Program-made: the position numbers and the translations under genes
Source of the DNA: Collinsella aerofaciens
GTDB lineage: Bacteria; Actinomycetota; Coriobacteriia; Coriobacteriales; Coriobacteriaceae
Direction of reading: 5' to 3'
Length of the DNA stretch: 64,000 bases
NCBI RefSeq assembly: GCF_028206995.1
Contig: NZ_JAQLFL010000003.1
Location: 1 to 64,000, forward strand
Shown: positions 1-35,213 of the stretch, piece after piece
How the letters are laid out: each line of letters opens with the position of its first letter
How positions within the stretch are numbered: the first letter of the stretch is position 1
The notes under the pieces: generated by a model
What the model was told of the DNA's origin: nothing
The model's input: the letters and a program-made list of their open reading frames with translations, nothing else
The model's database searches: none

Positions 1-68
1 GCGACGCGGAAATCGCGCGCCGTTGCCGCGCCCCGCAGTGCCCGCTTCCCCCGAGAACAATTATCAGT

Positions 69-131
69 GCAGGTAGAGCTCTTGCGCAAAAGCCATGTAC
101 TCGCGATATTGCAAAAAGTCTACTCACTTAG
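69..131 (+). repeat. Right half of the 121-bp stop-codon-ended repeat (copy 0)
   Basis: This 63-bp stretch aligns without gaps to the right half of the repeats at 10030-10150 and 11450-11570. It shares GCAGGTA at the left and AAAAGTCTACTCACTTAG at the right, with the middle diverged. The matching left end is not recognisable in the first 68 bases. It lies 122 bp upstream of the helicase start. Only the end motif and the spacing support membership, so this is a decayed or partial copy. Confidence 0.6.
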
Positions 132-10029: not shown

Positions 10030-10150
10030 AAGTGAGTAGACTTTTTGGAACTTGCCGAGCACGCCATCCATATTGCTTTATAAAGCCGCAGGTAAATGAC
10101 TTGTTTCAAAACGGCCTGGTCGCCAAAGTGCTAAAAGCCTACTCACTTAG
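10030..10150 (+). repeat. 121-bp repeat with inverted ends (copy 1)
   Basis: It starts AAGTGAGTAGACTTTT and ends AAAAGCCTACTCACTT (inverted, one mismatch), with CTAAG/CTTAG just outside. It matches the copy at 11450-11570 at about 84% over 121 positions without a gap (19 differences by hand count). The end sequence CTAAGTGAGTAG carries TAA, TGA and TAG in three different frames. The minus-strand nuclease-like gene takes its last residues LSE and its TAG stop from this end. Confidence 0.85.
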
Positions 10151-11266
10151 AACCGCAGCCGTCCACGATCGAGCCATTTTGTGTCTAGCGGGCATCTTTC
10201 CGTCGATTACTCCCAATTTTGTCCAGTCAACGAATAGTTCAGACCGGAGTAATGCCTCAGCCCTTTGCTCATCTGAGCTTTCATCACGATATTCAGCATC
10301 GAGCATCCTGCATACGGTCTTAACGATCGCGCGGAATCTACCCTCATCGGATATCTGTCTGTGTGTCAGGAGAAGTACATCGTAGCCCATGGCCTGAAGG
10401 GCCGTCATGCGGTCAGCGTCACGCAAGCCATCCCCCGCGCGTCCGTGCGAGGCCTTTCCCTGACATTCAATGGCCACCTGTCGCCTACCGTCCGGCGAAG
10501 AAAGAAGTAGGTCGATATATACACGGGACTTTCCCACAATCGCTCGAGCACTTGTGTTTAGCATCACTTCAACATTAAGCTCTATGCCGCAAAAACCTTC
10601 GCCTCCCAGGGATCGCGGCAGTGCAAGTAGCAAATACGCCTCGACCTCAAAAGGCGACGCGGCACCCAATGGAACGAGTTGCGATACCGCCATAAATCTA
10701 TTGCCGTAACGCATCCCACAAACATCTGAACAAAAACGGTCAAGGTCTCCGCCCAAAACCAAAGCGTCTCGACGCCATAAATTTGAGGCGGTGCCGTCCT
10801 CGGACGGGCAGCGCGCCCAACCGAACGTTGTCGAAATCGCACCCGAATCAATTGCACGCGAAAGCTCCGTCTCAAGTAACGCCGGCAGGGCACACACCGC
10901 AAACAAGCCACACATCTCCGCCAATACCAAAAGAAGCTGAAGATCCGTCAGATGCCGTGACATGATGAATGCCGTCAGTAGAGGAGACGTAATCAAAAAT
11001 CCATGCTCCGTTTCCAGCACGGATTCCCTGGGGAGCTCACCAAGAAACAGCCGCTGCCTAATGCTGGCAGGACAAGTCCGTTTGTTTCTCGTCCGAACCA
11101 ATGTATGCAACGGAAAACCGAGCGCGACCGCAGCCGTCGGGTTGCGGGCGAGATCATATCGCTGCCGGTCTTCTTCCGGTCGTGGAAGCGGCGGACACAA
11201 AGCGCGGACTTGAGGAGGCAAACGCCAGTACCTAAAAGCCGATATGTCACAAAGTAGATCCTTCAT
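10139..11266 (-). CDS. Uncharacterised protein with DUF559/Vsr-like nuclease C-terminus
   Basis: About 375 residues. The N-terminal part (DISAFRYWRLPPQV onward) matches nothing I can name. The C-terminal part has VYIDLLLSSPDG, then VAIECQGKASH, then RMTALQAMGYDVLLLTHRQI. This D, E-x-Q-G...H, R...L...GYDVL pattern resembles the DUF559/Vsr group of PD-(D/E)xK nucleases, with Q where K or D is usual. The gene lies between two copies of the 121-bp repeat and its last codons are within copy 1. Start uncertain (ATG 11266 or GTG 11272; no clear ribosome site). Possible selfish or defence nuclease; unproven. Confidence 0.6.
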   Translation of the reverse strand: MKDLLCDISAFRYWRLPPQVRALCPPLPRPEEDRQRYDLARNPTAAVALGFPLHTLVRTRNKRTCPASIRQRLFLGELPRESVLETEHGFLITSPLLTAFIMSRHLTDLQLLLVLAEMCGLFAVCALPALLETELSRAIDSGAISTTFGWARCPSEDGTASNLWRRDALVLGGDLDRFCSDVCGMRYGNRFMAVSQLVPLGAASPFEVEAYLLLALPRSLGGEGFCGIELNVEVMLNTSARAIVGKSRVYIDLLLSSPDGRRQVAIECQGKASHGRAGDGLRDADRMTALQAMGYDVLLLTHRQISDEGRFRAIVKTVCRMLDAEYRDESSDEQRAEALLRSELFVDWTKLGVIDGKMPARHKMARSWTAAVLSE

Positions 11267-11449
11267 AGGCACAGGAGAACACGAATTTCAACCCAGTCAG
11301 TCACGCATTGGCGCGAACGCACCAAAAATGGCGCCGAACGGACTGCCAAGTTTCCAACAGCCCTCCCCAACTGGCCAAAAGCTTGTCGAGAGCTGGACGA
11401 AGCCCTGTTGAAAACCCCATTTTTTTCTCATGCAGAAGCTTTACGCGGC

Positions 11450-11570
11450 AAGTGAGTAGACTTTTTTGAACATTCCGAGCAGGCCGGTCTTCCTGCTTTT
11501 CAAAACCGCAGGTAGATAGCTTGTTACAAAACTGCCTGGTCGCCAAAGTGCTAAAAGTCTACTCACTTAG
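11450..11570 (+). repeat. 121-bp repeat with perfect 16-bp inverted ends (copy 2)
   Basis: It starts AAGTGAGTAGACTTTT and ends AAAAGTCTACTCACTT, an exact inverted repeat. It has the same orientation and length as copy 1. The right half (GCAGGTAGATAGCTTGTTAC onward) is more conserved than the left. The minus-strand MocR gene ends inside it, using the TGA of the three-frame stop. The 177 bp between this repeat and the nuclease-like gene hold no gene I can support. Confidence 0.87.
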
Positions 11571-12999
11571 ATTGCAGAGTGCCCCCCATTAGCTGCAATT
11601 CCAAGGTAGTTAGTACTTTTGGACTCAGGTCGTCATACTGGACAAGAATATGAGTTGAGTTTTCAGGGGCAGATGCGCCATCGGCACACCAAAAACAGTC
11701 ACCGATATCGATAAAAGGGATGCTCGAGCGCGTGAGGGCCCGTGCAATAGTGCTTCCGCCCGTTCCACGCTCCGCAACCACGGTGCAGTAAAGGCCCGCG
11801 TCTGCGTGTTCGATCGAGACTTCCCCTGCCGGAAATGCCTTCCGTACAAGCGCCGCCAGGCCATCACGCGCCTCGCGAGCACGAACGCGCACGCGGTTCA
11901 CATGTCGCTCGTAATCACCCGATTCCAGCAAACGAGCCAAAGCGACCTGGTCAACAGAACTCACCGACGAGGCGTAAAAACCAAGGTTGCGCCTAAACCG
12001 CTCCATTAGCTCATCGGGCAGCACCATGTACGCTAGACGCAACGCCGATGACAGGCTCTTCGAAAACGTGTTGGTGTAGATAACCGACTGGGAGGCATCG
12101 ATCGACGCGAGCGCGGGAATTGGCTTGCCGGCAAGGCGAAACTCACAATCAAAGTCATCTTCGATGAGGTACCGACCTGGTCGCTCGGCGGCCCAGCTCA
12201 GCAGCGCATAGCGACGCGCAATGCTCGTCACAAGACCGGTGGGATACTGATGGGACGGCATAAGGTGAAGGACATCGGTCCCAGTTTTCTGCAGAGCGCT
12301 CAGGTCCACGCCGTCGTCATCCAACGGGATATGTCGTACTTGGCAGCCCATAGCCTGATAGATGCGCGTCAGACGCAAATAGCCCGGGTCCTCAACGGCA
12401 TACACCTTGTCAGCGCCAAGCAACTGAACCAACATGGTATCGAGCAGCTGGGCGCCTGCACCGATAACAATGTTGTTGGGGTCGACATTCATGCCCCTTG
12501 TCCCACGCAGATGGTGAGCAATTGCGCGTCGCAGCCGAGCGGTGCCCTGCGCCGGTGCGGGCGAAAAATTTTCGCGCTCATCTTCGGATGCCAGCGTCGC
12601 CCGTAGTGCGCTTTGCCAAAGCCGCGCCGCCTCCAAAGCGGAAGGAGAAAGTGCATCGAACAGCTCGACCTGTCCGTTGACATCATGCGCGCTGAGGCCC
12701 ACAGAGACGGTATCTCGGTCGATGCCCTGCGAAGCCAAAGGCAAAACCGGTGCATCCGGAAGCTTGCAAGCGTAGTAGCCACGACGCGGCATTGAGCAAA
12801 TATAGCCCTCGGCAAGTAACTGGCTATATGCATTCTCGATGGTAATGACACTGATTCCCAGATGACTGGCAAAGGCGCGCTTAGACGGAAGATGCTCCCC
12901 CGCCACAATACGTCCAGCAACAATATCATCTCGAATTTGCTGGTAAACATACTCATAAAGCGATGCTTCGCCGCGTTTTTCCAAATTGTAGTCAAGCAT
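11563..12999 (-). CDS. pdxR: MocR/PdxR-type regulator (GntR DNA-binding plus aminotransferase-like domain)
   Basis: A 478-residue two-domain regulator. Residues 1-75 form a winged-helix GntR domain (YEYVYQQIRDDIVAGRI, then LPSKRAFASHLGISVITIENAY). The rest is a fold-type I aminotransferase-like domain with the PLP lysine motif NTFSKSLSSALRLAYM. It is divergent from pdxS, 145 bp away, the classical arrangement of PdxR, which senses PLP and activates pdxST. A TTG start at 13032 is possible, but ATG 12999 follows AGGTGG. The last codons lie in the repeat at 11450-11570, so the natural C-terminus may have been altered. Confidence 0.85.
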   Translation of the reverse strand: MLDYNLEKRGEASLYEYVYQQIRDDIVAGRIVAGEHLPSKRAFASHLGISVITIENAYSQLLAEGYICSMPRRGYYACKLPDAPVLPLASQGIDRDTVSVGLSAHDVNGQVELFDALSPSALEAARLWQSALRATLASEDERENFSPAPAQGTARLRRAIAHHLRGTRGMNVDPNNIVIGAGAQLLDTMLVQLLGADKVYAVEDPGYLRLTRIYQAMGCQVRHIPLDDDGVDLSALQKTGTDVLHLMPSHQYPTGLVTSIARRYALLSWAAERPGRYLIEDDFDCEFRLAGKPIPALASIDASQSVIYTNTFSKSLSSALRLAYMVLPDELMERFRRNLGFYASSVSSVDQVALARLLESGDYERHVNRVRVRAREARDGLAALVRKAFPAGEVSIEHADAGLYCTVVAERGTGGSTIARALTRSSIPFIDIGDCFWCADGASAPENSTHILVQYDDLSPKVLTTLELQLMGGTLQSK

Positions 13000-13144
13000 G
13001 AGTTTGCCACCTGACCTTATCGAGCTGTTCAATCTGGTATTAGGCTGACATTATTATTATCTCGAAAACTGAGTATTTTGCCATACCCAGCTCCCCGATA
13101 GGATGTTCCGTCAAGCAATGCACATGCCAACCAAGGGAGCAACC

Positions 13145-14035
13145 ATGGCAGAACAGACCAGCAAGGCCGATCGCGTCAAACTCAATCGCGAACTCGCGCA
13201 GATGCTCAAGGGCGGCGTCATCATGGACGTCACCACGCCCGAGCAGGCACGCATCGCCGAGGAGGCAGGCGCCTGCGCCGTCATGGCACTCGAGCGCATC
13301 CCGGCCGACATCCGCGCCGCAGGCGGCGTCTCGCGCATGAGCGACCCCAAGATGATCAAGGGCATCCAAGAGGCCGTCTCCATCCCCGTCATGGCCAAGT
13401 GCCGCATCGGTCACATTGTCGAGGCGCAGGTCCTACAGGCCATCGAGATCGATTACATCGACGAGTCCGAGGTTCTCTCCCCCGCCGATGACGTCTATCA
13501 CATCGACAAGACCCAGTTTGACGTGCCGTTTGTCTGCGGCGCCCGCGATCTGGGCGAGGCGTTGCGCCGTGTTGCCGAGGGCGCCACTATGATTCGCACC
13601 AAGGGTGAGCCGGGTACGGGCGACGTCGTTCAGGCCGTGCGTCACATGCGCAAGATCCAAAAGCAGATCCGCGACGTTGTTGCCCTGCGCGACGACGAGC
13701 TCTTTGAGGCAGCCAAGCAACTGCAGGTTCCGGTCGAGCTGGTACGCGAGGTCCATGCCACGGGCAAGCTTCCCGTCGTGAACTTTGCCGCCGGCGGTGT
13801 AGCGACCCCGGCCGATGCCGCGCTGATGATGCAGCTGGGTGCCGAGGGCGTCTTTGTCGGCTCGGGCATCTTTAAGAGCGGCGACCCCGCCAAGCGCGCC
13901 GCTGCCATCGTCAAGGCCGTGGCAAACTTCACCGATGCCAGGCTCATCGCCGAGCTTTCGGAGGACCTGGGCGAGGCCATGGTGGGCATTAACGCCGACG
14001 AAATCGAGATTATCATGGAAGAGCGCGGGCGCTAG
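13145..14035 (+). CDS. pdxS: Pyridoxal 5'-phosphate synthase subunit PdxS
   Basis: A 296-residue TIM-barrel synthase that makes PLP from ribose 5-phosphate, glyceraldehyde 3-phosphate and ammonia. Family motifs include [52 protein letters not shown] and [14 protein letters not shown]. The start at 13145 follows AAGGGAGC, and the extra 14 upstream codons are unlikely to be used. pdxT begins 20 bp downstream, so the two subunits are cotranscribed. The divergent MocR gene is the likely regulator. Confidence 0.97.
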
Positions 14036-14055
14036 TCCAGCAGAAAGGATCGCAC

Positions 14056-14643
14056 ATGAGCGATTATGCAGACCAAACGGTTGCCGTGCTGGCGGTCCAA
14101 GGCGCTTTTGCCGAGCACGAGGCAAGACTATTCGAGCTTGGCGCACACTGTATTGAGCTGAGGCAGGCGGCTGATTTGAAGCAGGACTTTGACCGTCTGG
14201 TACTTCCCGGCGGCGAGTCTACCGTTCAAGGGAAGCTACTTGATGAGTTGGGCATGCTCGAGGAGCTTCGTGCCCGTATCGCTGAAGGTATGCCCGTCCT
14301 GGGCACCTGCGCCGGCCTGATTCTACTGGCTCACGACCTTGCCGCCCATGACGATAAGGGCACGCCGCGTCTGGAAACCATGGATGTACTTGTCGAGCGC
14401 AATGCCTACGGCAGGCAGCTCGGCAGCTTTCGAACCAAGGGGCAAATAGCCGGCATCGACGGTGAAGTGCCGCTGACGTTTATCCGCGCGCCCCGCATCG
14501 TCAAGGTCCACGGCGACGCCAAGGCCTTAGCGAAAGTCGACGGTCGTATTGTCGCCGCCCGTCAGGGCAACCAGCTCGGCGTAACCTTCCACCCCGAGCT
14601 CGACGACGATACCCGCCTCCACGAACTGTTCCTACAAATGTAG
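14056..14643 (+). CDS. pdxT: Pyridoxal 5'-phosphate synthase glutaminase subunit PdxT
   Basis: A 195-residue class I glutaminase that supplies ammonia to PdxS. Seen are LPGGESTVQGKLL, the nucleophile Cys in LGTCAGLILLA and the His-Glu pair in VTFHPEL near the C-terminus. AGAAAGGAT precedes the start. It is cotranscribed with pdxS, and a large hairpin follows at 14668. Confidence 0.96.
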   Translation: MSDYADQTVAVLAVQGAFAEHEARLFELGAHCIELRQAADLKQDFDRLVLPGGESTVQGKLLDELGMLEELRARIAEGMPVLGTCAGLILLAHDLAAHDDKGTPRLETMDVLVERNAYGRQLGSFRTKGQIAGIDGEVPLTFIRAPRIVKVHGDAKALAKVDGRIVAARQGNQLGVTFHPELDDDTRLHELFLQM

Positions 14644-35052: not shown

Positions 35053-35079
35053 GCGCTAGTATAGGGAGCAACAGATTCG

Positions 35080-35171
35080 ATGCGGGAGTGCCGGCGGTGC
35101 AAACCACAAGGCTGAGAGGGCATGGGGCCCAATCCTTTGAACCTGTCAGTTAATGCTGGCGTAGGGAGCAT
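35080..35171 (+). promoter_or_regulatory. TPP riboswitch (THI element)
   Basis: The conserved core is present: GGCTGAGAGGG (35110-35120), CCTTTGAACCTG (35134-35145) and TAATGCTGGCGTAGGGA (35151-35167). P1 is closed by ATGC/GCAT. It precedes a terminator and the thiamine salvage genes. It binds thiamine pyrophosphate and represses the operon. Confidence 0.95.
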
Positions 35172-35182
35172 GCCGCCTTTAC

Positions 35183-35213
35183 AGGGGCGCTGTCTATGCA
35201 CAGCGCCCCTTTT
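35183..35213 (+). terminator. Riboswitch-controlled terminator
   Basis: AGGGGCGCTGT pairs with ACAGCGCCCCT around CTATGC, followed by TTT. It lies between the riboswitch and the thiM start, the expected expression platform for TPP-induced termination. Confidence 0.88.

Follow-up and report, generated by a model that had tools for sequence, protein, structure and literature searches.

ERIC elements have a conserved centre. ERIC, RUP and Correia elements are of fixed size, around 100-200 bp, with inverted ends and intergenic positions, as described in the available part of PMC10969869. In the REP sequences of Escherichia coli, IS621 of the IS110 family uses one point inside the dispersed hairpin, according to the accessible portion of PMC11208160, and other REP-targeting elements are described in the part of PMC1525189 that is available. 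Elements of the IS1111/IS110 group target integron attC sites, which are potentially folded repeats (PMC11187229, accessible text).

The DNA analysed here, referred to as the window, is a stretch of 64,000 nucleotides from Collinsella aerofaciens (contig NZ_JAQLFL010000003.1). It contains copies of a hairpin repeat, termed F1, which shares its central core with two sister families, F2 and F3. We consider it probable that F1 represents Collinsella 119-bp hairpin repeats located at a few shared intergenic sites, and that the core common to F2 and F3 is the exact, repeatedly used insertion point of an IS110-family element, likely steered by its own bridge (seek) RNA. No prior description of Collinsella hairpin repeats was found among the top-ranked results of literature searches over papers outside subscription.

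The F1 repeats and their sites

Two full F1 copies are present on the plus strand of the window, copy A at 10030..10148 (oriented by its AAAACCGCAGGT-type core) and copy B at 11450..11568. The repeat proper measures 119 bp from arm to arm, or 121 bp when the trailing AG is counted, and over the longer span (10030-10150 and 11450-11570) the two copies align without gaps and are identical at 102/121 positions. The inverted 16-mer is perfect in copy B and matches at 15/16 in copy A. These values agree with an earlier, sequence-only reading of the window, which had described ungapped copies of equal length, ~84% identical, with 16-bp inverted ends. The arm pattern AAGTGAGTAGACTTTTT (17 bases, up to 3 mismatches) is found five times in the window, where 0.03 occurrences would be expected. 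On the same strand, the central core reads AAAGCCGCAGGT in copy A (10082..10093) and AAAACCGCAGGT in copy B (11502..11513), the latter being the IS110 target motif, with ACCTGC^GGTTTT on the bottom strand. The left and right inner motifs of copy B are located at 11474..11482 and 11536..11544, corresponding to element positions 25-33 and 87-95.

Two minus-strand genes end inside these copies, as had also been pointed out. An accessory nuclease-like gene between the copies (10139..11272) has its last codons (..LSE stop) and its TAG inside copy A, and a MocR/GntR-aminotransferase regulator gene (11563..13032) has its last codons and its TGA inside copy B. The product of the former shows a weak match to REase_MTES_1575 (PF18741, E 3.5e-6, below the cut-off), and PADLOC gave no match to a defence gene at E up to 1. 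The MocR gene adjoins pdxS and pdxT, and this part of the window (11563-14643) is therefore likely a vitamin B6 locus. A TPP riboswitch scoring at the Rfam gathering score is located elsewhere in the window (35074-35184, plus strand).

Among 43 genomes of the genus, of which G001 is the nearest to the window, the exact 16-bp F1 arm is present in 22 and the reversed control pattern in none (0/43). A search with the F1 sequence likewise gave 22/43 genomes, in a different set, with G014 found by its core alone and G033 missed. A two-arm F1 pattern applied to 84,980 species genomes, a collection that may lack entries closely similar to the window, returned 69 stretches, and all 69 are labelled Collinsella. 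F1 had no match in viral contigs, plasmids or phages, and a phage or plasmid origin was rejected on the basis of those sequence sets.

To be collected, an F1 copy had to have its two arms, each with at most 3 mismatches, at a permitted length of 102-137 bp. The observed length is nearly constant: 90 of the 95 distinct copies measure 119 bp, two 118 bp and three 120 bp. A first set of 87 distinct copies had given 84 of 119 bp, two of 118 bp and one of 120 bp, and from these 84 we drew 21 non-redundant copies (<90% mutual identity) for alignment. The conserved blocks are the arms (positions 1-16 and 104-119), which scarcely vary among copies, the central core AAAACCGCAGGT starting from position 53, and an inner inverted motif at about 25-33 and 87-95 (CCGAGCAC and GTGCTCGG).

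Clustering by flanking DNA places the 95 copies in seven groups (23, 17, 14, 12, 12, 12 and 5 copies) with no singletons; copy A belongs to group 1 (17 copies) and copy B to group 4 (12 copies). The seven groups are counted as eight sites because four loci hold two copies of the largest group ~3 kb apart. The presence of F1 in 22/43 genomes of the genus supports a dispersed family over a local duplication, the outcome that the same reading had named as the alternative to a mobile family.

The same reading held that the ends of the repeat carry stop codons in all three frames. This is accurate for three of the four ends of copies A and B, which read CTAAGTGAGTAG; TAA is lacking from the left end of copy B, GCAAGTGAGTAG. 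Three-frame stops occur in 38 of 63,982 plus-strand 18-mers of the window and in ~1.4% of 20,000 arm shuffles. The pattern is genuine yet peculiar to the F1 arm, and it likely follows from the sequence of this one arm, incidental to the element. Representative F2 and F3 arms, one each, have stops in one frame only. Gene ends fall inside F1 at the sites of copies A and B, two of the eight; at the other sites a crude gene finder places them 68 to ~320 bp outside, leaving aside one weak 41-aa ORF 49 bp away. It should be mentioned that the two sites form one region, flanking the accessory nuclease gene that is missing from four close relatives. A function as a universal stop is not borne out by these counts.

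Element-free alleles were read base by base at two places, A-B and locus 0. In G003, G006, G032 and G034, alignment with the window breaks off at ~9,960 and resumes at 11,780, with ~200 bp in between, and copies A and B are missing together with the nuclease gene. In the three of these that the script resolved (G003, G032 and G034), the final part of MocR belongs to a diverged allele, which terminates shortly past the terminator-like sequence of the rubrerythrin gene. At locus 0 in G003 and G004, an unrelated ~195-bp stretch replaces 315 bp. The comparison of empty with occupied sites suggested by the sequence-only reading thus gave, at both places, the swap of a gene module or of a whole intergenic region and no clean 121-bp empty site. 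The insertion of a single element was rejected for these F1 loci, the element-free alleles at locus 1+4 and locus 0 being wholesale replacements. With all 95 distinct fetched copies at eight shared sites, current mobility of F1, as had been proposed, is not supported.

Pairwise differences per site within groups amount to 0.024 for the arms, 0.040 for the core, 0.086 for the inner motif, 0.137 for the spacers and 0.179 for the flanks, taken as 30 bp per side; the comparison used only copies of 119 bp, in pairs whose flanks were long enough and at least 0.6 identical without gaps. The F1 arms diverge ~six times slower than the spacers, and the spacers outpace the flanks at loci 5 and 6. As judged from sequence comparison, selection would be the simplest reading of the slow arm change at fixed sites. 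Gene conversion between copies could also be its source, although it would be odd for conversion to affect the 16-bp arms and spare the spacers next to them. As a separate observation, ~1.5 kb splits F1 copy B in G024 (C1, 1347602-1349236), and the halves overlap by 7 bp, as would be expected after the insertion of an ordinary IS.

Sister hairpin families with the same core

F2 and F3 have arms other than those of F1, CAAAACTATGCCGGTTTACTACGATGAA and GCCACGAAATGGGCCCATCTACTACGTTTA, respectively, around the same central core, CTACCTGC^GGTTTT. With up to 2 mismatches, F2 arms are found in 19/43 genomes and F3 arms in 22/43; the reversed control patterns gave no match for F2 and one for F3, in G020. 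The spacing between inner arm ends, permitted to vary from 102 to 114 bp, is 108 bp in 46/50 copies and 107 bp in 4/50, and a later set of 64 copies, restricted to 107-109 bp, gave 108 bp in 60 and 107 bp in four. The core starts at offset 48 in 45/50 copies, and three further copies were reversed by the script.

At the 3' site of selB (called by a partial TIGR00475 match), before tRNA-Sec, G031 carries F3 just after the selB stop codon, G024, G008, G002, G007 and G003 have nothing, and G018 and G006 have a different hairpin. The presence of F3 in one genome and its absence in five indicate that the sister family moved at some time. No target duplication is evident at this F3 insertion. The F2 copy at a second site, L214, has no counterpart in the six other genomes read, whose intergenic sequence there is different and shorter.

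Two further arrangements were noted. A hairpin repeat with arms CAGTTGCGGTGAAATAGTTCC (L307, L308 and L243), with many partial matches, stands behind selB in the position taken by F3 in G031, and in G007 (C1, 1094999-1095600) F2, F3 and an F2 variant are found in a row, ~100 bp apart.

An IS110-family element at the core

The sequence-only reading had recorded a third right half of the repeat at 69-131. F1 sequence is indeed present there (plus strand, 69..131), running from the cut point of the core to 2 bp beyond the right arm. It does not result from truncation, which was rejected in favour of an IS110-family junction within the core: positions 1..68 represent the left end of an IS110-family element on the minus strand that interrupts the core of copy C, with the left junction CTACCTGC|ACTGATAATTG and the boundary at 68. 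The remainder of the element and, beyond it, the left part of copy C lie outside the window. The copy C orthologue in G018 (L135) carries an insert of ~1.3 kb at this very point of its core. Pieces of the readable part of this insert match, below the curated cut-offs, DEDD_Tnp_IS110 (PF01548, E 3.5e-5, 24.1 bits against a cut-off of 29, in a 43-aa piece) and, in a C-terminal piece with an HTH, Transposase_20 (PF02371, E 0.022, 15.5 bits against a cut-off of 21.3).

The left end of the element was found 22 times in six genomes (G001 10, G011 5, G018 4, and G012, G026 and G032 one each) and once in the window, not counting eight rows with a match to the inner part only and L274, a doubled alignment of one copy. 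Of these 23 left junctions, 20 are in the cores of the hairpins: five in F1, four in F2 and 11 in F3, the last including L292, whose diverged F3 arm was judged by eye and which shares its last 40 bases with L297. The remaining three comprise L281, whose hairpin has arms of a further type, and two in a sequence ending TCCTGC. Four of the five F1 junctions are at locus 3 (window, G001, G011 and G018), and these four insertions may represent one inherited event.

The insertion point, CTACCTGC^GGTTTT, is the complement of the core, AAAACC^GCAGGTAG, with small variants at 5/23 left and 1/10 right junctions. All 23 left junctions end in GC, 21 of them within ACCTGC or ACCAGC, and the 10 right junctions read GTTTT in nine cases and GTTTA in one. 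The inserted element thus has a specific target point and a fixed orientation, as in the IS110 family, and its non-coding region, 305 bp from the left end to the chosen transposase start, is the long upstream region that this family leads one to expect. The core is also conserved in G007, G008, G024 and other genomes in which the left end of the IS was not found, so the IS did not create the core.

An autonomous transposon with F1 or F3 arms was considered and, for the three wide arm pairs followed among the matches listed (G018 C1, G018 C5 and G012 C77), rejected, since these are IS110 insertions in the core; none of the three is a parent transposon sharing the hairpin ends.

The 305-bp upstream region contains TGACCTGC, a candidate guide with ACCTGC, followed 21 bp on by CAAATCC. 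The former agrees with the top strand of the left target at 6/8 positions and the latter with the complement of the right target at 6/7; their upstream position and order agree with those of IS110 guides in the accessible text of PMC11187229. A guide-type match of this kind occurred in 237/5000 dinucleotide shuffles under a loose criterion and in 17/5000 when exact ACCTGC was demanded, and the candidate guides are treated as a lead because the criterion was chosen with the sequence already in view. The match is modest, with mismatches, and no convincing donor-side guide was found in the non-coding region.

Origin and role of the hairpins among known systems

In our best reading, the hairpins are REP/MITE-like repeats that are probably now constrained and serve the IS110-family element as landing pads. 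F1, F2 and F3 likely arose as small non-autonomous repeats, and the F1 copies would no longer move. Their arms and core would probably be held by selection on the hairpin or on a bound protein at transcript ends, the role of the hairpins themselves potentially being transcript-end processing or protein binding. The IS110-family element is predicted to choose its target by its own non-coding RNA, with candidate guides upstream of the transposase gene. Neither an origin nor a transposase of the hairpins was found in this analysis.

A broader version of this reading, put forward tentatively, is a modular hairpin superfamily, in which arms would be exchanged as families and the core, inner motif and exact length retained. 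The repeat might then be a domesticated element of fixed geometry at gene ends, its universal core offering harmless landing pads of unrelated outer sequence to an RNA-guided IS110 element.

The hairpins may instead act at transcript ends, being transcribed from either side, folding, and either processed or protecting RNA ends as for Correia and ERIC elements; this is a possibility that we would put below even chance. Precedents are given in the available part of PMC10969869. Copy B with 10 bp of flank has a predicted fold of -48.8 kcal/mol (z -3.86, 0/200 shuffles as low), and about 94% of cells are paired across the arms, inner stem and core hairpin of F2/F3 in an alignment of 23 of 30 non-redundant copies, from which four copies of 107 bp and the three script-reversed ones were left out. 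The proposal of the sequence-only reading to fold an alignment for covariation had a divided outcome. The whole-structure score is 0.321 versus 0.157 in shuffles (0/500 as high), but both stricter counts are within the range of the shuffles, with 13 pairs changed on both sides versus 12.0 (114/500 as high) and 35 further pair types versus 33.7 (149/500 as high). The covariation is weak evidence for structure because much of the signal tracks the split between F2 and F3. The neighbouring genes are convergent at five of the eight F1 sites, co-directional at three and divergent at none, based on up to four loci per group and a crude gene finder with a simple codon model; however, the orientation of the core relative to these genes is mixed. 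For F2/F3, with each group classed by the first of its members that was read and not all members of a group in agreement, 2/19 groups have divergent neighbours and two are unresolved, and a rule of occurrence only at gene 3' ends was discarded on account of the divergent groups. The F1 spacers, moreover, are unpaired, at chance level, and no Rfam 15 match above the gathering score was found at the F1 elements, which led us to reject a known structured RNA family.

A double-stranded DNA site of fixed geometry, with arms, inner motif and core bound on phased faces by, e.g., a nucleoid or recombination protein, would be rather unlikely on the present sequence comparisons. In its favour, spacer positions 34-52 of F1 are paired with their mirror positions in 159/399 cells (~40%, near chance; hand count over 21 copies), and the length stays near 119 bp across spacers that are constrained in neither sequence nor pairing; the conservation of arms and core at fixed sites also fits. 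However, one protein could hardly read all arms, because those of F2 and F3 differ from those of F1 around the retained core.

Movement of the hairpins as REPINs by a RAYT tyrosine transposase is improbable. Y1_Tnp proteins are present in 24/24 genomes searched, GTAG is found within the F1 arm, and REPs are known IS110 targets (PMC1525189 and PMC11208160, in the parts available). Against this, 24 loci read of 58 Y1_Tnp matches, with 1.5 kb on each side, have no F1 arm and no paired F2/F3; single 8-base arm words appear in eight of them and one-mismatch core words in two, and L326, L327 and L338 carry other inverted repeats. F1, furthermore, occupies ~8 sites, not hundreds. RAYT as mobiliser of the hairpins is thus unsupported in the loci read. 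The inverted repeat near RAYT-like genes in L327 (2261-2383; 36 bp, GGTAGTCAATTTGGGACGGGGCTATTTTAGCTACCC) and L326 (2262-2380) is a candidate Collinsella REPIN family. In G007 (C6, 221450-224176), the F3 copy L256 is located ~2.3 kb from a RAYT-like gene; the flank of L256 is near a RAYT-like gene in several other genomes, without a complete flank pair among the matches listed.

A transposing repeat that lands at 3' ends and supplies universal stops read from both sides is very improbable: the stops at three of four window ends, the two genes terminating there and F3 past selB in G031 are outweighed by F1 copies confined to shared sites without singletons, by A-B and locus 0, where no clean empty site was seen, by gene ends inside at 2/8 sites and by the one-frame stops of the representative F2 and F3 arms.

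IS110 elements are the natural source of bridge-RNA recombinases. If our preferred reading of the core as an IS110 landing pad is true, different arms around one core that is hit at one point would separate the part read by the guide, i.e., the core, from the contribution of the hairpin, i.e., the arms. The genus is common in the human gut, and the hairpins add to it a repeat superfamily whose constant length calls for explanation.

The Collinsella hairpins can be compared to three described systems, as far as the accessible texts portray them. Like E. coli REP and IS621, they are dispersed hairpins with an internal point targeted by an IS110-family element. Unlike REP, which are 20-40 bp long and often exceed 100 copies, the Collinsella hairpins are 119 to ~170 bp long, with F1 at ~8 sites, and they have different arms around a common core and no RAYT adjoining in the loci read. 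They are outside the RAYT/REPIN group on the features tested, neither RAYT flanking nor high copy number having been found. By layout and description alone, they resemble the MITE-like ERIC, RUP and Correia elements in fixed size, inverted ends and intergenic position. They differ from these in that no target duplication or partner transposase was found, and in arms and core that change slowly at shared sites; they are only partly MITE, the 16-bp terminal inverted repeats being present. Finally, the repeats in Collinsella, unlike attC, are dispersed and were not met in cassette arrays, but as with IS1111/IS110 at attC, an element with a putative DEDD transposase targets a potentially folded repeat.
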